From the NCBI RefSeq assembly GCF_007860175.1, contig NZ_SJPX01000005.1, positions 682,001 to 746,000 of the forward strand: 64,000 nt of DNA, read 5' to 3'. Source of the stretch: Rubripirellula reticaptiva (GTDB taxonomy: Bacteria; Planctomycetota; Planctomycetia; Pirellulales; Pirellulaceae). The notes below the pieces were generated by a model. The model made no database searches and was not told the origin of the DNA. It saw nothing but the letters and a program-made list of their open reading frames with translations. Positions 6,305 to 31,599 of the stretch are shown in pieces; the stretch's first letter is position 1; the number at the start of each line of letters is the position of its first letter. A program made the position numbers and the translations under genes.

Positions 6305-6898
6305 CTACAGCATCATCTTGGGCAGTCGTTGAAATCGGCATCTGCGAACGGCGAAGCCAACCGTGGCGACCAACAGCAATGCCATCGACGACGCTTCAGG
6401 AACTGCCACGGTGTTGGAAACCACAAAAACAGCCCCGTTCAACTTGCTACTAACCAAGAGCTCTCTTAGGGGCGAAACCCCGAATCGAAAGTCGCTTCGT
6501 GTTACCGGGTTCGAGGGCGTGCATCCCAGGTAACTTGGGTCACCAAACAGTTCAGCAAACGTATTGAAATTTACCGTTGCGGTGCTTTCATCATCATCAT
6601 GGTCAAAAGCCAACATGAACTGATTGTGATCGTCGAGCCAGGTGAGTTGATCGACGGCCTCGCCCGCTTCGAGTGAAGTTTTTTGCGTCAGCAAGTTTTC
6701 CAGCGAGACACTGTACAGTTGGCCGCCCGGTGCCACCGAATTGCCGGCAAAATTACCGTAAAAATACTCGCCATTGATGACCGGACCACCAGCGATGCTG
6801 ATCAAATTGTTGTCCATTGGATCGTTGTGGCCGAGTTGCAGCGCTGGATAGATGAAGGTCTTTCCTTCGTCATTCCCCGTTAGCAACATTTGATTCAC
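6305..6898 (-). pseudogene. C-terminal remnant of a PEP-CTERM protein, possibly sugar-dehydrogenase-like
   Basis: The 197-residue frame starts 11 bases after the DUF1501 stop and has no signal peptide. It ends with a PEP-CTERM-type anchor: VPEASS, a hydrophobic stretch (MALLLVATVGFAV) and a basic tail (RRCRFQR). PEP-CTERM proteins need an export signal, so the missing N-terminus suggests a truncated gene. The segment GEYFYGNFAGN...GQLYSVSLENLL resembles the last blade of PQQ-type sugar/sorbosone dehydrogenases (GKYLFGDF...GRLFYV), but this is a weak match. It could instead be a short, non-exported protein translated by read-through from the upstream gene. Confidence 0.6.
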
Positions 6899-6909
6899 TC
6901 GCTAAAGTC

Positions 6910-8208
6910 TCAGGTGAACAGCGATGCGATCGGGGCGCCTCGGTCGGTGATTGGGACCGGACGATCACCGTCGTACAACGATTTGCCAGGATCGATGCCA
7001 AGGGCTGCGTGTATGGTCGCAAAGAAGTCTGGCACGGAAACGGGTGATTCGACGATGGATTGCGATAACTCGTCCGTGACGCCGTACGCGCCGACGTGAT
7101 TCAATCCGCCACCAGCCAAAACACAAGTGAATGTTTTGCCTTGGTGTCCGCGCCCGCCACCGGAATCAAAACCAGCAGGACGACCAAATTCCGTCGTGAC
7201 CACAATCAACGTGTCATCCAACATCGACTTGGATTGCAAGTCATCAATCAACGTAGCCATCGCGATGTCCAGCTCTGATATCAGTTGGTGCTGTTTTTGA
7301 ATGCCGTCGTTATGGACATCCCATCCGGTTCCGTTGAGGAAATTTAGATTGTGCGAAACTTCGACAAATCGGACGCCTCGCTGGATCAGCCGCCGGGCCA
7401 GCAAACAGCGTTGCCCAAATTCGCCACCGAATTGATTCCGCAGGTCATCTGGTTCGCGATCGAGCTGGAAGACACGGTTGAATTCAGGACCAGAAAGCCG
7501 CAGAGATTGTTCCAAGGCGGAATCGTAATCGGCCATCTTTTCGTCGCCGGCAAAACGTTTGCTGGCGGACAAACGCGTCTGTGCAAGCAACTTTTCACGC
7601 GTCGATTGGCGATCAGCGTCGACGCCGTGGGGCAATGACAGTCCCGCGGGGCCACGCCGAGTGTCGGTCAAATACAAATAGCCAGACTGTGCACCCAAGA
7701 AACCGGGTCCGCGTGTGACGTTGGGATAACCGATCAGAACATACGGCGGAACGCCCTCGGCCGCCGCGTCCAACTGGTTGGCAATGACACTGCCCAGCGA
7801 CGGGTATGTCACCGTACCGGTCACAATGCGACCGGTGTGCATCCGGTTAGTCGCCGCGGCGTGTTCGTCGATGACGTCATGATGCACGGTGCGCACGGCC
7901 GTGACGCGGTCCATTCGAGGTGCCAATTGCGACAGATGTTCGCAAACCGAGACGCCAGCAACCGCAGTGTCAATCGACTTATAGAGCGAACCGGGCTTCT
8001 TCGCCTTTGGGTCACCGACGCGTTTCGGGTCAAACGTATCGATCTGGCCCATGCCGCCACCGAGCCAAATGGAAATGACATGCTTGGCTTTGCCTCGTGG
8101 CATTACCGGTCCGGACGCATCGGTCGTTCGCGTCAATGACAAGCTTGTTGCGGCTGCCGCGGCGGCACCCATCCAATGTCGACGATTCAATTCGTTCATG
8201 GTAGCCAC
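6910..8208 (-). CDS. DUF1501 protein with Tat-type signal
   Basis: The 432-residue protein opens with a twin-arginine motif ([18 protein letters not shown]). It has the DUF1501 core: [17 protein letters not shown], a run of conserved HTG-type residues ([16 protein letters not shown]), [21 protein letters not shown] and [12 protein letters not shown]1501 has an alkaline-phosphatase/sulfatase-like fold and is almost always paired with DUF1549/DUF1553 proteins in planctomycetes; the biochemical role is unknown. The start overlaps the end of the upstream DUF1549/1553 gene by 13 bases, so the two are translationally linked. This pair parallels the one at 26.0-29.0 kb but has no sigma factor. Confidence 0.88.
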
Positions 8209-11200
8209 ACAAATTCAGGAGAGTTCAATATCGACCAAACGACGTCTTCGTAAACAGTTCGCCAAGACGTTCGCAAACGTGGATCGGGGGCATCGCCGAC
8301 GATCGCTCGTCGTTCCATTTCGATTTTGATCGTGTTAGCGGGGCCCGCCAAATGATTCGACCAAGAAACGTGTTCCAACCCTGGCAGACGCTCCGGTGCA
8401 ACCACTTGATCACCAGGCACCAATCGGTCATCAAAGCCATCTTGCAGAACTTCAACCATAATATGCAATTCATTGTCTGTTGGTCGTCGTGACAAAAACC
8501 GAATGTACAACGATTCGACCAAAGCCCGCGATGAATCCGCATTGATGGCCAAGTTCGCCAAATCACTGTTCATCGACGCCGCAACCGTCCAAGAAGCGAA
8601 CACGCTGTTTCCAATCGCGCCGGGTTGCAATACGTTGGTCGAATTGTCGCGAGAATCAATGGCGGATTGCCGGTTGCCAGTCCATCCAAACGCTTTCATC
8701 ACATCCACCACCGCCGACGCTCGTGGCAGTGCCAAACTTGGTCGGTCGCGTTCATTGGACAGCGTCGTAAATTGCCACGCCCGGGATGGACTGCCGAACT
8801 GCAACATCGTTTTGGCTGGACGGCGTGCTTCGGGATCGAACGACAACTCTTCGACATCCAAGGGGCGGCCCGATGCAGCCACCATCGAATCGACCAACTG
8901 TTCGGCGGATAACCGCCGACGATCGGGTGCGGCAAACCAACGTTCGTCGGCACGGGCATCCAAATTTGAACCTCCAGCCTGCCGTTGGTACACGTCGGAC
9001 TTCATGATCGTCGCCGCTAAAAGACGCAAGTCATATCCGTGACGGATGAAGTCATGCGACAACCACCGTAACAATTCAGGATGGCTAGGCTTGGCCGATT
9101 CCCAATCGCCAACCGGTTCGACAAAGCCGGTTCCGATAAGACGTTTCCAAACCCGATTGACGATCACGGCGGCAAAGCGAGAGTTCGCGGGCGAAGTGAT
9201 CGCGGCTGCGAAACGTTCGCGTGAATCCGCTGATTTTGATGACCATCGGTCGATTTCCTTTGGTGAAACAAGTTCAGCAAACGGCCATTCAGGTTGGACA
9301 GGGACGCCCGGTTGCAAAGTGACCTCGATCAACGAATCACGACCGCCGTGGTCTTCAAAGAACGCTGCCGGAACAGTGCTGCTGGCGGGCACTTTGACGT
9401 CTTTGCGTGCCAGCATCGCGGCCAAAGAAAAAAGGTCGTGCTGCGTTGTTTCGTGATAAGGCGAATCGTGGCATCGGGCACATTGTAAGTTGATTCCCAG
9501 GAACGCCGATGCGGCAACGATGCTGCGGGTTGCTTCAGGCGCATCGTTGTCGGCAGCCATACCAAAACCGGCGCTGCCGCCCTGATACAAACTACCGCGC
9601 AGCATCAACAACTCGGTCACCATTCGGTCGACCGGTTGGTTGTCGATCAAGGCTTCATACAAAAAGTAACGAAACGGTCCGGTATTATTTAGCGACGGTT
9701 TCAACAGGTTCGGGTTTTCGGCCAAAATGTCTTGCCAAAAGCTGACCCAATGATCGGCAACTTCTGTTCGCGTTAGTAATTGGTCGATCAAATCCGCTCG
9801 CTTGGACACGGATCCGCTGCTCATAAAAGCAAAGTACTCATCTCGCGTGGGCGGCAAACCAACCGTGTCCAAATAAGCTCGTCGCAAAAAAGTTTCATCG
9901 TCGACCAGATCCGCAATCACGATTTCATCAGCCGATTTCGATCGCCCCCAGGTTGCTCCCGATGCGATCCACTCATCCAACGTTTCGATATTTTCGGACG
10001 ACATCGGTTCCGACGGCGGCATCCGTTCGGACTCGTCCGGCGATCGGATTCGACGCATCAGTTCACTGCCGTGCGGGTCGCCGGCACGCACGATCAATTC
10101 ACCTGAATCGCCGCCGGCTGCAACATCCGCTGCGGAACTCAAACGCAGCCCCCCCTCGTCGTCTTCGTCATGGCAACGAAAGCAATTTTGTTTCAAGATC
10201 GGCAATACGTTCGTCGTGAAATGATCGGCTGCGGAATAATCCGGTTCACCAATTGAATTGTTGCTGGTTGCAGTGGATCGATGTTTTTCGATTTTCGCCA
10301 AAATGAACTTATCGACGACGGACGAGGAAGCATCGGAAGATGGAATATCGATAGGATCGAGCGTTTGCAAGTGTTCGCGAGCGAGGAAATGTCGCTGATC
10401 CCAATAGGCGTTCTGTGACGCAGCAAGTTGATGTCGCGAATCCGTTTCGAAATCAGCGACGTATTTCTCGACGTATTTCAATTGTTTGGTGACGTTGCCG
10501 TCCGTCATCGGCATTTCGACTAACGATGCGGGTGCTGGCCGGAGCAACAGAAACGGGCCGGTTGAATTCAATTGAACGGCAACGACCGTTTCGCCAGGTT
10601 CGGCACGCAGCGATTTGCCGCCGATAAGCGTTTCCAAAATCACGCGTTGAATGCCGTCGGTCTTGATCGTGTGTTCGACGATCTTCTCTTCCACGCCGTA
10701 AGCCACCCGCCGCATTTTCGCGGCCGGTCGTTCGGGTAGCGGTTCGACTGGGTTGTGCCCATCGGTCCTTGACGACAGCGGCCCTGTCGTGTCGAAGCGT
10801 TGATCATCGATCCACAGACGCGACAAACCACGTGACCGCACGACGAAACGATGCGTGCCCGCGGGCAAATCCACATCGGCACCAAGCCGCAACCAAACGG
10901 CATCACGATAGGCATCGCGTACTCCGTGATCGTCGTAAGCGTGCGGCAATCGATTTAATAACATCGGCGCGTCAATATTCAGCCATGTCCCGCGATCGAT
11001 TCGCTTAGCTTGCCAATCAGCGTCCTGCCAAGCGGTATGCGACGGAACTTGATCGTCGAACCACCACGTCACCTGGCCGGCGGGAATCGTCATCGTCGGG
11101 GGTGACGGTGGAGGCGGCGGCAATGGGTTCCAACGCAAAGCCATTTCGGAATCCGTCAACGCACGGCGATAAATGATCAATCGATCGAGCTGGCCACGCA

Positions 11201-11975
11201 GGCTGGATGAGTTCTGCCCCGCCATCGACGATCCGATCCAAACGGCTGCGTCATCGACAACGGGTGCCGTTTGTGTGGGACCGCCCATGTCCCATTGGCC
11301 ATCAGTCGATCTACCATCGATCCACGCACGCATGCTGTCCGGTTTTCCGAAACGGTACGAAACTGCAATGTGATGCCAAGCCGATGACGACGACTGCCAA
11401 CCATCGTGGCTAATCCACCGATGCCAAACTGAATTTGAACCGTCCTTCGGTGTCGCAAACAGAAAGCCGACTCGAACTTGGCCATTCCTCTTGCATATCC
11501 GCAAGGCCCAGTTCTGGTTGTCTCGTTCGAACCCTTTGTCGAAGGTGCGTCCTTTGCCAACGATGTAACTGTTTTCACCTTCCGCGATGTCATCGACTTT
11601 CAAAATCGCTTCAATCGAGATCACGTCGCCATTGGCAAAATCCCACCGACTCGATTCCCCCAAATCCGGGACAACGATGCGTGCTCCCTGGCCACCAAAT
11701 TCAAAAGCGAGATTATCAGCGGCCGTGTCAGGATATCGCGGTGGACGGGGTCCGATACGGTCCCGTTGCACCTTGCCCACGATGACACCCACGTCCGGCT
11801 TCGCTTCGAAATCCCAATCCGCGACTAGGTTCGGATGAGAAACGTCCGGTTGGGAAATATCTGCACCTGATTCGTCGGCACGCAAGTGATCGACGGAAGC
11901 AAAGGCCAACCCGAACGCTAGCGAGGCGGCAACAATCAATCGCTTGATGGTGTTAGAACTCATGGGCGAGCACAC
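8196..11975 (-). CDS. LamG + planctomycete cytochrome c + DUF1549/DUF1553 giant secreted protein
   Basis: The 1259-residue product has an N-terminal signal segment ([16 protein letters not shown]). A concanavalin/LamG-like domain follows (about 60-270: VVIDDAA-like region, [21 protein letters not shown]). Then come a second sandwich region and a planctomycete-type cytochrome c domain around residue 620 ([17 protein letters not shown]...ERMPPSEP), with a CxxCH heme motif. DUF1549 and DUF1553 complete it, including a second CxxCH ([18 protein letters not shown]). This architecture is standard in planctomycetes and always paired with DUF1501, here directly downstream and overlapping. A role in extracytoplasmic polysaccharide or redox chemistry is inferred from the family context only. 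Confidence 0.9.
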
Positions 11976-25783: not shown

Positions 25784-26017
25784 TCGAGCGGCTGGGTTGG
25801 TACGCCACAGAAGCGTTCAAGCAAGGCCCGAACGCCGTTTTTCGCCAAGGTTGCGTCAATCCTCGTTATAACCGGGACGATTGGCCGGCAATCTGGTAGC
25901 TGATTGGGATCGCTCTTTGAGCGTGACCTTCGGCTGGAATAGAATGAATGGGTACATCGGGTCGCTTGGACGCGTTCAAGTGGTGTCGAACGAACCCCAT
26001 CCCAGGATTTCTGCTCC

Positions 26018-27703
26018 GTGAACCACCGATTCTCTCTTACCGTTGCCGGATGGATGATCGCCCTATTTAGCGGTTTCCTGGGCAGCGGTTTTACGTCTCC
26101 CACGTCAGCTTCGGCTGCCGATACGGTCCGCCCCCAGGTCGCGTTGATCAATGAATTGATCGAACAGGGATGGCGAGATTACGAAATTCGCACGCCGGCG
26201 CCCGAAGTCGATGATGCGACGTGGGCACGTCGTGTCTTTTTGGATGTGATTGGCCGGATTCCGACGGTCGCCGAACTGCAAGACTTCGCTTCTGATCGTG
26301 GCAGTGACAAGCGAGCCAATCTGGTCGAGAAATTGTTGCACGATGATCGATACACCGAAGAGTACGCAGGACATTGGGCCACGACTTGGTCAAACCTGCT
26401 GATCGGTCGCAGTGGCGGCAATGACCGCCGTTCGATGGTTAGCCCCGCAGGAATGCAGAAGTACCTTCGCGACTCGTTCGCGATGAATAAACCGTACAAC
26501 ACGATGGCCTATGAATTGGTCACCGCCACAGGCAGCGGCAAGCCGGGCACTGAGAATTTCAACGGTGCTGCAAACTTCTTGTTGGACAAAGTCAACGAAG
26601 AAAATGCGGTGCTTGCGACCAGCAGCACGTCGCGAATTTTCTTGGGCCAACAAGTCCAATGCACCCAGTGCCACAACCACCCGTTCAACCAGTGGAAGCA
26701 ACAACGATTCTGGGAATTCAATTCGTTCTTTCGCCAAACTCGCGCACTGCGTCGCTTTGTCGAAGACACCAACGATATCTCGCATGGCGAGTTAGCAGAC
26801 CAAGACTACGCGGGCGAATCGAACAATCCTGAAGACGCGTTGATTTTCTACGAATTGAGAAACGGCCTGACGAAAGTTGCCTATCCGGTCTTCACCGACG
26901 GAACCGAAATCGGCAAGAGCGGCTTTGTTGGTGATGTGAATCGACGTCAAGAACTCGGACGCTTGATGCTCGAGAGCGAGTATCTGGACAAAATGATTGT
27001 CAACCGAATGTGGTCACTGTTCCTGGGATTTGGGTTCACCAAACCGATTGATGATCTGGGCCCGCACAACGTGGCGTCACACCCCGAATTGCTCGACAAA
27101 TTATCAGCCGAGTTTCGCAAGTCGAGCTACGACCTGAAAGAACTGATCACATGGATCACGACCAGCCGTCCGTACCAGTTATCGGCAGTACTGAATTCGT
27201 CAAACGAAATCGATGATCCATCGATCGGCGAAATGCCAAAGTTCTCGCGTTTCTACTTGCGTCAAATGTCAGCAGAACAGCTTTATCAATCGATGGTAAC
27301 AGCAACGGACGCATCGGCTTCGGGCAGCTATGAAGAACAGGAACGCGAACGCCGCAAATGGTTGGAACAGTTCGTGGTCGCATTCGGCACCGACGAAGGT
27401 GACGAGGCGACGACGTTCAACGGCTCGATTCCGCAAGCGTTGATGTTGTTCAATGGTGCCCTAACGCAAAACGCAATCAGCAAGTCCGACGGCAGCTTCA
27501 TCGACCGGATCGCCAAGTCGGGCCGATCGCCGCAAGATCGTGTGACCAATTTGTTCCAAGCCGGATTGGCTCGCCGTCCTGACAAGAAAGAAATCCAAAT
27601 CGCCGGACAACTGCTAAGAGCACGCGGCGGCGACGAAAAAGAAATGTTGCAAGACATGTGGTGGGCTGTGCTGAACAGCAACGAATTCATCATGCAACAC
27701 TAG
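26018..27703 (+). CDS. Secreted DUF1549/DUF1553 protein, first gene of the sigma operon
   Basis: The GTG start at 26018 gives a signal peptide (LTVAGWMIALFSGFLGSGF, then ASAADT). DUF1549 spans roughly residues 40-250 (WARRVFLDVIGRIPTVAEL, DDRYTEEYAGHWATTW). It contains the CxxCH motif at residues 215-219 (VQCTQCHNHPFNQWKQQ). DUF1553 follows (ELGRLMLESEYLDKMIVNRMWSLFLGFGF..., late FQAGLARRPDKKEI, ending WAVLNSNEF). Unlike its paralogue at 8.2-12 kb it lacks the LamG and separate cytochrome domains. It is followed after 47 bases by DUF1501, then by a sigma factor and an anti-sigma-like gene. CxxCH may bind covalent heme, but that is not proven for this domain. Confidence 0.9.
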   Translation: MNHRFSLTVAGWMIALFSGFLGSGFTSPTSASAADTVRPQVALINELIEQGWRDYEIRTPAPEVDDATWARRVFLDVIGRIPTVAELQDFASDRGSDKRANLVEKLLHDDRYTEEYAGHWATTWSNLLIGRSGGNDRRSMVSPAGMQKYLRDSFAMNKPYNTMAYELVTATGSGKPGTENFNGAANFLLDKVNEENAVLATSSTSRIFLGQQVQCTQCHNHPFNQWKQQRFWEFNSFFRQTRALRRFVEDTNDISHGELADQDYAGESNNPEDALIFYELRNGLTKVAYPVFTDGTEIGKSGFVGDVNRRQELGRLMLESEYLDKMIVNRMWSLFLGFGFTKPIDDLGPHNVASHPELLDKLSAEFRKSSYDLKELITWITTSRPYQLSAVLNSSNEIDDPSIGEMPKFSRFYLRQMSAEQLYQSMVTATDASASGSYEEQERERRKWLEQFVVAFGTDEGDEATTFNGSIPQALMLFNGALTQNAISKSDGSFIDRIAKSGRSPQDRVTNLFQAGLARRPDKKEIQIAGQLLRARGGDEKEMLQDMWWAVLNSNEFIMQH

Positions 27704-27750
27704 TCGTTCAATCTCTATTCGCTAACAACTTTTAACCCCCAGTTTACGCC

Positions 27751-29025
27751 ATGATTTCCACCTGGAAGACTCCCGTCGGGATGGATCGTCGACACTTCAT
27801 GCAGCACCTTGCTGGTTCGTCGGCGGCTGCAGGCGCGGCCCTCACCTTGGGCGGTGCCATCCATGCCAACGCCGACGAGATGAAGAAGAATCACAAGAGT
27901 GCGATTCTGCTTTGGATGGGTGGCGGTCCGGCAACGATTGACATCTGGGACTTGAAACCAGGGGCACCGACGGGCGGCCCGTTCAAGCCGATCTCGACAA
28001 CCGGCGACATGCAAATCTGTGAACACATGCCAATGATGGCTCAGCAGATGAAACACCTGTCGATCGTCCGCAGCATGTCGACTCGCGAAGCCGACCACAA
28101 TCGCGGACGCTACTACATGCACACTGGTTTCGTGCCGAACCCAAACATCGAACACCCGAGCTACGGTTCGGTGATCGCTCACGAGCTGATCGACCAACGA
28201 CCCGAGTTAGAAATTCCTCCGTTCGTTTCGATCGGTGGAGCCGGCGCTGGCCCGGGTTTCTTGGGAATGGCTTGGAGCCCGTTTTCGGTGACGAGCAACG
28301 GCCGAATCCGTAACCTCGATATGAAGCTGGACGAGACACGTTTGATGCAGCGAATGGCAGCACTGAACATGATCGAATCCGGTTTCGAAAAACGGACTCG
28401 TGACTTGCCGGCCAGCGAGCATGCGAAAGTGCTGCGCAAGACGTATGACCTGATGACCAGCAGTCAAATGGAAGCGTTCCGCGTTGAAAAAGAACCCGAA
28501 GAAGTTCAAGAGCGTTATGGCAAAGACAACTTCGGCCAAGGCTGCCTGCTGGCTCGTCGATTGGTCGAGTCCGGTGTGCCGTTTGTCGAAGTCGACTTGG
28601 GTGGCTGGGACAACCACAACGGAATCCACACGCTGCTGAAGGACACCAAGTTGCCGCAGCTTGACCGCGCAATGAGCGCGCTGACCGAAGATTTGGCCCA
28701 ACGAGGATTGCTCGAAGACACGGTCATCATTTGGATGGGCGAATTTGGTCGCACACCGCGCATCAATCAAAATGCCGGCCGCGACCACTGGGCCCGATCA
28801 TGGTCATGCGTTGTCGGCGGCGGAGCTATCAAGGGCGGATTGGCTGTTGGCGAAACCAGCAGTGACGGAACAGCCGTCGAGTCCGAGCCGTATAGCAGCG
28901 AAGATTTGATGTCGACGGTTTGCAAAGGCCTGGGCATCTCGACGGAGAAAACGTTCACCAGCAAGAATGGTCGACCAATGAAAATCGCCGGCGGTGGCAA
29001 GCTTATCACTGATCTATTGGCGTAA
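27751..29025 (+). CDS. DUF1501 protein, second gene of the sigma operon
   Basis: The 424-residue protein has a DRRHFMQHLAGSSAAAGAAL start, a twin-arginine-type signal. Core motifs are ILLWMGGGPATIDIWDLKPG, YYMHTGFVPNPNIEHPSYGSVIAHE, FVEVDLGGWDNHNGIH, and IIWMGEFGRTPRIN followed by GRDHW. These include the metal-binding D/H residues of the alkaline-phosphatase-like superfamily. It is the normal partner of the preceding DUF1549/1553 protein and would be exported folded. The sigma factor gene starts 5 bases after its stop. Confidence 0.9.
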   Translation: MISTWKTPVGMDRRHFMQHLAGSSAAAGAALTLGGAIHANADEMKKNHKSAILLWMGGGPATIDIWDLKPGAPTGGPFKPISTTGDMQICEHMPMMAQQMKHLSIVRSMSTREADHNRGRYYMHTGFVPNPNIEHPSYGSVIAHELIDQRPELEIPPFVSIGGAGAGPGFLGMAWSPFSVTSNGRIRNLDMKLDETRLMQRMAALNMIESGFEKRTRDLPASEHAKVLRKTYDLMTSSQMEAFRVEKEPEEVQERYGKDNFGQGCLLARRLVESGVPFVEVDLGGWDNHNGIHTLLKDTKLPQLDRAMSALTEDLAQRGLLEDTVIIWMGEFGRTPRINQNAGRDHWARSWSCVVGGGAIKGGLAVGETSSDGTAVESEPYSSEDLMSTVCKGLGISTEKTFTSKNGRPMKIAGGGKLITDLLA

Positions 29026-29030
29026 AGCTT

Positions 29031-29639
29031 GTGTCGTCGCAAGGATCGCATGAACGTGTAAGCGGCAGCGTCGGCGATGCTGCGGGCGCTGGCGCTAGCG
29101 GGATTGAATCCACCGGTGACGCTGCCGAACTGCTACCTGCCGAGCTGATTGCTCGGCACCAACGGGGCATTTGGCGGTATCTACGAATGCTCGGATGCGA
29201 CGACTCGATGGCGGACGATTTGACGCAGGAAACGTTTTTACGAGTCCTTCGCCGCGACAATTTCGTTCAACATAGTGAAGCCGCGACCAGCAGTTATCTG
29301 CGGCGAACGGCCTACAACCTGCTCGTTTCGGACCATCGCAAGCACAAGCGTGTGCAGTCGATGGCCGAGTCGCCGCTGATGGACGAGATCTGGGATCGTT
29401 GGGCTGGTAAGGATTTGTCGGGCGACCGAGCAGTGGATGCCTTGAAGGGCTGCTTGTCGATACTGACGAATCGAGCACGGTTGGCATTGCAGATGAGGTA
29501 TGGAAACGATGCCACGCGGATTGAGATCGCCGAGGCGCTTGATATCACGGACCATGGTGCTCGCAATTTGATGCAGCGAGCAAAGGGGCAGCTTCGCGAA
29601 TGTGTCGAAGCAAAATTACACTTGAACATCGATCATTGA
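29031..29639 (+). CDS. ECF-type RNA polymerase sigma factor
   Basis: The GTG at 29031 lies 5 bases after the DUF1501 stop and gives 202 residues. Region 2 is seen as LIARHQRGIWRYLRMLGCDDSMADDLTQETFLRVLRR, with the DDLTQETF signature that binds core polymerase and the -10 element. Region 4 is ARLALQMRYGNDATRIEIAEALDITDHGARNLMQRAKGQL, a helix-turn-helix for the -35. The first 35 residues are low-complexity Gly/Ala/Ser. It is immediately followed by an anti-sigma-like gene, the usual arrangement, and so probably controls this operon among others. Confidence 0.9.
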   Translation: MSSQGSHERVSGSVGDAAGAGASGIESTGDAAELLPAELIARHQRGIWRYLRMLGCDDSMADDLTQETFLRVLRRDNFVQHSEAATSSYLRRTAYNLLVSDHRKHKRVQSMAESPLMDEIWDRWAGKDLSGDRAVDALKGCLSILTNRARLALQMRYGNDATRIEIAEALDITDHGARNLMQRAKGQLRECVEAKLHLNIDH

Positions 29640-29649
29640 AAACAGACTC

Positions 29650-31599
29650 ATGACTGACTCGAACCAGTCCAACCCTGATTCACCAAACAACGACGACCGC
29701 GCATTGACCGACCAGGACTTTGCCGAACGAGCGTTTGATTCGTTGTTCGTCGAAGCAATGGGAAAGGCCGAGCCGCCCGACCTGACTTACAAGATCCTGT
29801 CGCGACTGCGAGAGGAACCGGTCGCCGCAGCACCTCGGCCAACGGCGCTACCCAATCGCCCGTCCCAAGCGAAACCGTCGCCCGCAATCGCGAAATCCGC
29901 ATGGTGGTTCGTCGCTGCCGCAATCGCGGCATCCTTGATCGGCTTGCTATGGGTTCGGAATCATCGCAACTTGCCGATCGAAGTCGGTTCGGTCGCCAAG
30001 CAAACCGAACAAAATGTCGCATCGACGACCAAGAATGACGTCGCAGCAGCGGCTGCTTCATCGGATTTATCAACTACCGAACCCAAACAAGACTCGCTCG
30101 CGGACGCGCCACGTCAACCGCCACGCGGTCGTCCGATGGTTTTGCCGACCAACGAATCGAACGAACCAGTCGATGCACCAGAGTCTGTGCTGGGAATGCC
30201 GTCTGACGAATCACTTGGGCCGCCTGAATCGATGGCGTTGGTATCACATCAAGTGGATTCGGAGATGCGAGGGTACTGGGATGCGATTGGGATTCAACCG
30301 ACCGACGAAGCCGGTGCCGAACAAGTTGCAGATCGCTTTAGCCGGCTGTTTGGCTTTGCCTGGTCCGCCTCGGATCTAAGTAGTGCCGAAACGATTCAAG
30401 CGAAAATCGCAATCGATTCGATCGCGACGCAGATTGCGACCGGTTGGCTGAATCAGATCACCGATGGCGGAATCAACCGCGTCAAAGGAAAACAGCGAGA
30501 CGATCTAATATCCGAAGTCGCCCAGGCCTTCTCGGGTTCGTTGCCGCTGGACCGATCGCTTGCCAGTTGGATCGATGGAACGTCGGTGACATCCACCGCT
30601 TTCCTTACCGCGATGGCAGCAGGTTCAAATTCAGTCGATGACGGTGTGATGGGGCGTCATTTGGCATCGCTAATTTTCAACAAAGATCTCCGTTGCACTC
30701 GTTGTCACGACGCCTACATCGAAGGAAGCGGCCGACAAGAAGACTATTGGTCGCTGGTTGGGTTGTTGCACCGTGATTTGGTTCCCAGTCGTCAGGGATG
30801 GTCGGTCGCGAAAAAGCCAAACTCCCGCAAGCTGTTTTTTGATCTCGCCGATGGTCGTCGCCGGGTTGCGATGCCAGAAGTCCCCCGTCAATGGATCGCC
30901 GGCCCCGATGCAGTGACTTCGCTATCGGATTGGTCGGCTCGATTGAACGGTTCTCCGTCGTTGGCGGCAGGCGTGGTCAATTCACTTTGGGAAATGGTCC
31001 ACGGGCAACCGCTTCACGGCCGAGTTGTCGATCCGATGAATGCGCCGCATAACGAAGCGTTGGCGGAATTAGAAACTCGCTTGGTGAACGACCTTCTGCG
31101 GTCAAAGTTCAATCTGGGTCGCGCACTCGCACTGGTGATCGCATCGCCGGCCAGCAACCGCCAAGTCCCCAAGTCACTGGAAAATAGTTGGGTTATCGAC
31201 AACGCGGTCGAGCGTTCGGCCGCCGAGGCATTCGCCGCAGCGATGCCGCTGAAGTCCGACTTGCCGTTCGACCGACGAGTTGACGAGGCGATGCGATCGA
31301 TCGGTGCAAAGCTCGACATCAATGGAAAACCACTGCTGGCCCAAATCGGCCAAGGCGGCTCTGGCACCAACAAAGTCCGTTCGGACAAACTGTCTTGGGA
31401 CTTTCCCGACCGCGCCGAAACCCTGCCTGTGCAATGGCTGCGTCTGATCAAGAACACCGACCAGCAGGTGGATCATTTGGCCTACCTGGCGGGGCGAACC
31501 GATGCACCCGAGTCCGTGCAGAAGGGCGTCGAGGCAATGCAGGCCGCAAACATCGACGAGGCAACGATATTGAACCGAGTCTGGTGGATGGTTCGGTAG
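29650..31599 (+). CDS. Anti-sigma-like membrane protein fused to a DUF1549/1553-related outer domain
   Basis: The 649-residue protein has a cytoplasmic part (about 1-82; the segment from LTDQDFAERAFDSLFVEAMG to LTYKILSRLREE resembles anti-sigma N-termini), one membrane span (residues 84-102, AWWFVAAAIAASLIGLLWV), and a Gln/Pro-rich linker to about 200. The large outer domain contains CxxCH at 349-353 (LRCTRCHDAY), then ...YWSLVGLLHRDL, AGVVNSLWEMVHGQPLHGRVVDPMNAPHNE and a final LNRVWWMVR. This matches the organisation and motifs of the DUF1549/1553 protein three genes upstream. It would hold the sigma factor at the membrane and sense a redox, ligand or partner signal outside. No zinc-binding HxxxCxxC is visible. 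Confidence 0.82.
   Translation: MTDSNQSNPDSPNNDDRALTDQDFAERAFDSLFVEAMGKAEPPDLTYKILSRLREEPVAAAPRPTALPNRPSQAKPSPAIAKSAWWFVAAAIAASLIGLLWVRNHRNLPIEVGSVAKQTEQNVASTTKNDVAAAAASSDLSTTEPKQDSLADAPRQPPRGRPMVLPTNESNEPVDAPESVLGMPSDESLGPPESMALVSHQVDSEMRGYWDAIGIQPTDEAGAEQVADRFSRLFGFAWSASDLSSAETIQAKIAIDSIATQIATGWLNQITDGGINRVKGKQRDDLISEVAQAFSGSLPLDRSLASWIDGTSVTSTAFLTAMAAGSNSVDDGVMGRHLASLIFNKDLRCTRCHDAYIEGSGRQEDYWSLVGLLHRDLVPSRQGWSVAKKPNSRKLFFDLADGRRRVAMPEVPRQWIAGPDAVTSLSDWSARLNGSPSLAAGVVNSLWEMVHGQPLHGRVVDPMNAPHNEALAELETRLVNDLLRSKFNLGRALALVIASPASNRQVPKSLENSWVIDNAVERSAAEAFAAAMPLKSDLPFDRRVDEAMRSIGAKLDINGKPLLAQIGQGGSGTNKVRSDKLSWDFPDRAETLPVQWLRLIKNTDQQVDHLAYLAGRTDAPESVQKGVEAMQAANIDEATILNRVWWMVR

Follow-up and report, generated by a model that had tools for sequence, protein, structure and literature searches.

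A 64,000-nucleotide window of the planctomycete Rubripirellula reticaptiva (assembly GCF_007860175.1, contig NZ_SJPX01000005.1, positions 682,001 to 746,000, forward strand) contains a four-gene operon, here called A–B–C–D (window positions 26018–31599, + strand). The extracytoplasmic function (ECF) sigma factor C and the membrane protein D probably form a sigma/anti-sigma pair with a small regulon, mainly their own operon, in which the outer domain of D, a paralog of the first gene product A, would act as the sensor. The sequence comparisons described below give good support to two points: C drives A, and the membrane partner of C has an outer domain related to A.

Gene A (26018–27703, + strand; GTG start) encodes a 561-amino acid protein with Pfam matches to PSCyt2 (DUF1549; E = 6.1 × 10⁻⁴⁴) and PSD1 (DUF1553; E = 2.2 × 10⁻²⁸) and a CxxCH motif at residues 215–219; its hydrophobic N-terminus predicts export. 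It is followed after 47 bases by B (27751–29025, + strand; 424 amino acids), a DUF1501 protein (E = 8.8 × 10⁻¹⁰⁹) with a weakly TAT-signal-like N-terminus for which all TAT models score under their cut-offs. Five bases further on, C (29031–29639, + strand; 202 amino acids, GTG start) has sigma-70 regions 2 and 4 above the Pfam cut-off and matches TIGR02937 (sigma70-ECF; 64.3 bits against the 42.9 required); the closest NCBIfam subfamily, TIGR02989, stays under its cut-off (80.8 against 124.55 bits). D (29650–31599, + strand; 649 amino acids) begins 10 bases after C and reaches the cut-off of no Pfam or NCBIfam model; we read it as a predicted membrane-bound sigma partner, or anti-sigma factor, with a PSCyt2/PSD1-related outer domain. 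An earlier note, made from the letters of this DNA, had given the same four reading frames, lengths and gaps, and had placed in D a single membrane span at residues 84–102 (29899–29955, + strand) and a CxxCH motif at residues 349–353 (30694–30708, + strand). Both placements agree with the motif position, with the hydropathy maximum of D, which is residues 84–102, and with the AlphaFold model, in which this stretch lies inside a helix at 78–104.

The outer domain of D is a paralog of A

The kinship between D and A, which the earlier note had proposed, was borne out at several levels. In the window protein, Pfam detects PSCyt2 below threshold (residues 209–373, E = 0.038, 14.4 bits against a gathering score of 29.8), and BLASTP aligns A with D at E = 7 × 10⁻⁵. 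A profile-profile comparison of 19 same-genus D sequences (residues 195 on; sister genera excluded) with the 19 rows of the A alignment matched D 200–499 to A 42–383 with a probability of 97.6 and E = 4.6 × 10⁻¹². Intermediates exist in the sister genera G023 and G022, where the post-sigma gene product aligns with A almost from end to end (41% and 35% identity, respectively), and the D protein of G023 (L181) has both PSCyt2 and PSD1 above the Pfam cut-off. Among the 23 D proteins of one alignment (A4), PSCyt2 was found at E ≤ 0.001 in 21 and PSD1 in 10, the window D having neither. By eye, the AlphaFold models of A and D share a similar helix order, four strands past CxxCH and three final helices. 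In a phylogenetic tree, A grouped with intact D to the exclusion of 13 other PSCyt2 proteins (SH-aLRT 100), and a more careful tree split them from four other PSCyt2 proteins with support of 100/100. The outer domain of D (residues 195–649; 30232–31596, + strand) is thus, on these alignments and trees, homologous to A and a paralog of it. The fold gives no clue to function: Foldseek searches of the PDB with the D (pLDDT 70) and A (pLDDT 83) models returned no match at E ≤ 0.001, and at E ≤ 1 neither the D sequence by itself nor alignment A5 matched any PDB sequence.

In the window protein this domain has lost much of what is invariant in A. Across 170 columns conserved at ≥95% in 61 A proteins, the window D keeps 34, a loss of about four fifths. 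On average, the 18 intact D proteins retain a fraction of 0.76 of these columns, two intermediate groups 0.53 (n = 19) and 0.31 (n = 15), and the 36 most diverged proteins, the window D among them, 0.22. H221 and R330 of A are present in ≥95% of intact D proteins and gone from ≥90% of the diverged class, and tryptophans at D 210 and 447 and phenylalanine at D 528 are retained in all 36 of the most diverged. The retention of CxxCH in this count is true by construction, since the set of 88 D proteins was pre-filtered for that motif. Within the genus, identity to the window protein is 32–50% for D and 72–89% for A.

The N-terminal module of D occurs beside ECF sigma factors

D shows the genomic features of a membrane anti-sigma factor: it is encoded beside the sigma gene and has one membrane span in an N-in orientation. 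The N-terminal side of the span is the more positive in 78 of 85 D proteins, and by the positive-inside rule this bias puts the N-terminal module in the cytoplasm across the family.

The module itself (residues 20–55; 29707–29814, + strand) is supported by two model helices and by the specificity of its EPPDL motif. From 69 of 88 D proteins we built a Hidden Markov Model (HMM) that spans the PPDL motif and its flanks, 32 residues in all, and searched 2992 mechanically derived open reading frame (ORF) N-termini from loci L031–L052 and L088–L244. All 88 D proteins were recovered at E < 10⁻³. At E < 0.01 the model also found 21 of 33 partners of other sigma factors (including L192, which is D-type) and 12 further D-type proteins, and no other ORF among the 2992. 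When eight of the module-bearing other partners were scanned with Pfam, four proved to be of vWA type (vWA/YfbK) and four had no domain at E ≤ 0.01. The four vWA-type cases (L204, L214, L221 and L190) join the same module to an unrelated outer domain beside other ECF sigma factors, and would make the module-bearing proteins a mix-and-match planctomycete sensor family; on the module itself in these four, Pfam gave nothing at E ≤ 0.01 except DUF3379 (0.008) in L190. Because the module was found in the loci examined only beside ECF sigma genes, and with differing outer domains, it tracks the sigma factor and not the outer domain. This distribution is the main sequence evidence that the first helices of D are the putative sigma-binding part, and it bears out the earlier suggestion that the N-terminal region behaves as a sigma-partner module.

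A shared promoter-like element precedes A–B and sigma–D

Alignment of 17 upstream regions from the genus revealed one strongly conserved block, GRGTACRT-N14/15-CGTT, present in strict form in 16 and as a variant in L045. In the window it reads GGGTACAT-N15-CGTT (25950–25976, + strand), an ECF-type promoter-like element 68 bases ahead of the A start, and its spacing is that of the −35 and −10 boxes of ECF promoters. The strict element has one exact match in the window, and with one mismatch allowed there are 2 matches against 1.4 expected. Directly upstream lies a second element, GAATAGAAT (25937–25945, + strand), recurrent in the genus alignment and present once in the window; it could be the site of a second regulator.

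These 17 regions supplied the pattern, including a loose form chosen after viewing them, and both forms were then counted in other genera. There, the strict element occurred before 16 of 44 linked A genes, 4 of 26 unlinked sigma genes, 5 of 15 unlinked A genes and 0 of 277 other genes; the corresponding counts for the loose form were 31/44, 10/26, 11/15 and 6/277. The linked set includes L125, with only 15 upstream bases, and for several of the 26 unlinked sigma genes (e.g., L111, L118, L133, L137 and L150) the contig ends too early to rule out that A is linked. In five genomes (G111, G131, G079, G125 and G056) the loose element precedes both a separate sigma–D and a separate A–B, and among the 15 genomes with both loci it was found at A in 11 and at sigma in 6. 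Genome-wide, strict counts exceeded the reversed control in G000 (12 against 3) and in G001 and G003 (7 against 3 each). Because the element co-occurs before separate A–B and sigma–D operons, we infer its use by C; the natural reading is that the sigma factor would drive itself and A–B, with few other targets.

The sigma–D pair is the constant core

Next, we asked how widely the arrangement is kept. Of 100 Pirellulaceae genomes searched with a profile of sigma C (E ≤ 10⁻²⁰), 78 had a match, in most cases just one; these matches cover 53 of 68 genera. D was present in 21 of 22 same-genus genomes, in some as contig-end pieces. The neighborhood survey covered 98 sigma loci besides the window locus, namely 77 of the 84 profile matches and 21 of the loci L031–L052 (L049 lacks the sigma gene); the other seven matches were those of G000, G017, G020, G022 and G023, plus G117:C512 and G093:C11, which were left out. 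Seven loci were dropped because their downstream ORF is truncated, L109 because it lies at a contig end and L164 because its sigma score is 76, which left 89 loci with a complete downstream ORF and a sigma score of at least 120. Among these 89 post-sigma proteins, 84 contained CxxCH, 86 a strong hydrophobic stretch and 68 an A-profile match. None of the five without CxxCH (L156, L158, L160, L161 and L162) matched the A profile; three of them carried the N-terminal module at E < 10⁻⁹ (L156, L161 and L162), with L160 at 0.011 and L158 at 0.43, and L156, L158 and L162 were read by eye as vWA proteins.

A lay upstream of the sigma gene in 59 of the 84 CxxCH loci and was not seen in 25, 16 of which had at least 6000 bases upstream. 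In 20 genomes picked for A not being seen linked, 15 had an A-like gene scoring >800 bits away from the sigma gene, followed by DUF1501 in 14 (the fifteenth lies at a contig end); in G080, G095, G108, G045 and G124 the D locus alone matched the A search at E ≤ 10⁻⁹⁰. Sigma and D thus make up the constant core, whereas A–B often lies elsewhere and the full A–B–C–D arrangement is common without being universal. The earlier note had staked its reading on the four genes staying together in relatives: this stands for sigma and D, and, since A–B is located elsewhere in many genomes, it partly fails for the four-gene unit.

The pair extends beyond the family. At the order level, sigma matches (E ≤ 10⁻⁴⁵) were found in 36 of 146 genomes, 14 of which belong to other families. 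The 16 loci from other families comprised 13 D proteins with an A-profile match (one truncated) and three with another outer domain; the 12 complete D proteins scored 570–772 against the A profile. A full-length DUF1501 gene followed D in 5 of these 16 loci, with a cut-off copy in L300, and in 4 of the 84 loci within the family. Of 12 other-family genomes, 10 had A elsewhere (in G246 as two matched pieces), and G149 and G038 had only the fused form at high score, further matches scoring 223–268 bits.

This distribution does not sustain the claim that D was derived from A. Initial trees nested A inside D, a placement that is unsafe because of long branches; an approximately unbiased (AU) test did not reject D as a single clade (p = 0.105), and trees with order-level sequences made family D one clade separate from family A. 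With trees that disagree and a fused, intact D across the order, the A-to-D direction is not established. The fused form may be as old as or older than the separate A, since intact D followed by DUF1501 occurs in several loci of other families.

A separate observation concerns L042, where the sigma match at 6489–6993 is split across two frames, which looks like a frameshift or an error in the assembly.

DUF1501 genes next to A and next to D are homogenized within three genomes

Comparison of the DUF1501 genes in genomes with a copy after both A and D revealed close likeness. In G055 the two copies share 99.3% DNA identity in an alignment of 1304 bases, the only part of the two stretches to align at E ≤ 10⁻¹⁰. 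The copies share 96.4% over 1485 columns in G115 (best alignment) and 92.3% over 1467 in G054, whereas the D loci of these two species of one genus share 77–79% with each other. A DUF1501 tree paired the copies within each genome with support of 100, 88 and 99, and in G056 the 99 comparable contig-end bases are 100% identical. Gene conversion or repeated replacement would explain this within-genome likeness, and homogenized copies in turn suggest a common DUF1501 partner for A and D. The near-identical pairs, a case of concerted evolution, are L136/L254, L141/L265 and L147/L263.

A specific version of this idea, which we regard as possible at best, is that D is a heme-motif pseudo-enzyme competing with A for DUF1501, so that the balance of free and engaged DUF1501 would set the hold on the sigma factor and hence the level of A–B. 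The near-identical genes in G055, G115 and G054 would then be the trace of the shared partner. In that case the sensor would gauge the complex formed by the output protein itself and not a ligand from outside.

Proposed mechanism and alternatives

We propose that the cytoplasmic two-helix module of D tethers C at the membrane and that the outer domain, by its position and its degeneration with CxxCH kept, serves as the sensor. D would read either a ligand or redox state handled by the A–B pair or the availability of a common DUF1501 partner. A heme or redox signal is favored by the retention of CxxCH in a degenerate D, and DUF1501 occupancy by the homogenization of the DUF1501 copies. On receiving its signal, D would release C, which would transcribe A–B–C–D from the GRGTACRT-N14/15-CGTT element.

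Several results weigh against this proposal. Intact D proteins are numerous in other genera, which means that a role as sensor only cannot be general. One alternative is a trigger enzyme, a single protein that is both enzyme and anti-sigma factor: the outer domain of D would still perform the A-type reaction with DUF1501, catalysis or turnover would gate the sigma factor, and A would be a soluble copy that arose later or in parallel. The high A-profile scores of the 12 complete other-family D proteins, the DUF1501 genes directly after D in both surveys, the presence in G149 and G038 of the fused form only at high score, and the near-identity of the DUF1501 genes beside A and D in three genomes all speak for it. 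In the window genus, however, D has lost the greater part of the residues invariant in A, among them those at H221 and R330, and its sequence changes far more quickly than that of A; we judge a trigger enzyme improbable here.

At the N-terminus, the AlphaFold helices of the module (21–37 and 46–54) have a pLDDT of only about 50–60, and in 12 of the 33 partners of other sigma factors the module is not found at E < 0.01. D also scores under the cut-off of every known anti-sigma family, the nearest being NF052375 (E = 0.003, 17.6 against 100 bits). With no recognized anti-sigma domain, and because an inhibitor and an activator look the same by sequence alone, D could instead be a membrane anchor or activator that needs C, or a tethered relative of A that is decaying and stays in the operon by chance. 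The confinement of the module to ECF sigma neighborhoods in the loci examined, joined to unrelated outer domains as well, argues against these readings, and the retention of CxxCH, span and sigma adjacency in 84 of 89 loci argues against simple decay; we consider this family of explanations quite doubtful.

Finally, 16 of the 26 unlinked sigma genes, 4 of the 15 unlinked A genes and 13 of the 44 linked A genes lack the loose element upstream, and at the order level it precedes 1 of 16 sigma genes and 3 of 10 A genes, all three from one genus; in most of the other eight genomes counted, strict matches (2–11 against 2–13 in the control) were near or below background. These gaps, before many unlinked and nearly all order-level sigma genes, would fit a sigma factor that answers to something else, an incidental A–B–C–D linkage and an element used by another regulator, which is very hard to credit given the ECF-type −35/−10 spacing and the five genomes with the element at physically separate A–B and sigma–D operons.

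Relation to known systems

The earlier note knew of no description of a design in which the sensor descends from the regulated protein. One is in fact described, since RsgI6 of Clostridium thermocellum embodies the same idea with a glycoside hydrolase: its outer GH10 domain is 57% identical to Xyn10D, whose promoter SigI6 activates (PMC4711584). Like D in our proposal, RsgI6 is an autoregulated membrane anti-sigma factor; its outer domain is a copy of the regulated enzyme and has weak activity (PMC4711584). According to the accessible text of the same paper, SigI factors resemble ECF sigma factors only to some extent, whereas C is an ECF sigma factor; the N-terminal segment of RsgI is about 165 residues, against about 80 in D; and the outer domain of RsgI6 binds polysaccharide, with neither a heme motif nor a DUF1501 partner described in that text (PMC4711584). 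No RsgI model was among the Pfam matches of D at E ≤ 1, a scan that included no dedicated RsgI test. Of the RsgI-like features, paralogy of the outer domain to A is seen, and the tie to the promoter consists of the shared element only. The proposed C–D pair would be a variant of the RsgI6-type design with a PSCyt2/PSD1-related sensor.

In general layout D also resembles class I anti-sigma factors, described as having cytoplasmic N-terminal helices, often a membrane span, and a variable sensor (PMC7406223). The class I anti-sigma domain (ASDI) is a three-helix bundle plus a fourth helix binding sigma2/sigma4, whereas the D model shows two low-confidence helices. The Hx3Cx2C motif is absent, because residues 1–83 of D contain no Cys or His.

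A link between an ECF sigma factor and a PSD1 + PSC2 protein has been proposed before. A study of R. baltica, citing Studholme et al., suggests that RB10049 (an ECF sigma factor), which is up under heat, cold and salt, regulates RB10051, a PSD1 + PSC2 protein (PMC2754498). RB10049 has 217 amino acids, against 193 for the R. europaea sigma ORF of C type, and on the details given there RB10049/RB10051 cannot be identified with this locus; in the R. europaea D, Pfam detects nothing at E ≤ 0.05. Another R. europaea pair, L249 (2036–5665, − strand), fits RB10049/RB10051 as well. It consists of an ECF sigma gene, then a 1210-amino acid protein with PSCyt1–PSCyt2–PSD1, then DUF1501, and the N-terminus of the fusion is zf-HC2-like (E = 0.0037, under the cut-off). 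With a different sigma factor, N-terminal module and PSCyt2 clade from C–D, L249 is apparently an independent fusion. In the open-access literature, as far as its searchable text goes, we found nothing on DUF1549 with an anti-sigma factor or on DUF1501 + DUF1553 + DUF1549 together, the arrangement appearing only in PMC2754498; the portion available of a review of ECF sigma factors in stress responses (PMC8103513) contains no occurrence of PSCyt or cytochrome.

The DUF1549/1553 family is large. In A it has a conserved member, present mostly in single copy, that comes with a sigma factor, a predicted promoter and a probable sensor, and this switch would be a first handle on what the family does: the inducing signal, which could be hunted with a promoter reporter, would be a first clue to its role.

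Two further loci, L246 and L250, have an ECF sigma gene, then a protein of ~560 amino acids, then a PSCyt2 protein; in L246 the ~560-amino acid protein is FecR + Laminin_G_3 by Pfam, and DUF1501 follows the PSCyt2 gene. ECF control of PSCyt2 genes may be general. Such genes number in the dozens in the two genomes counted, with 46 PSCyt2 matches in this genome and 40 in the second, and the window itself contains a second PSCyt-type protein of 1259 amino acids (8196–11975, − strand), with a PSCyt2 match of 110.5 bits at G000:C5:691405–691932.

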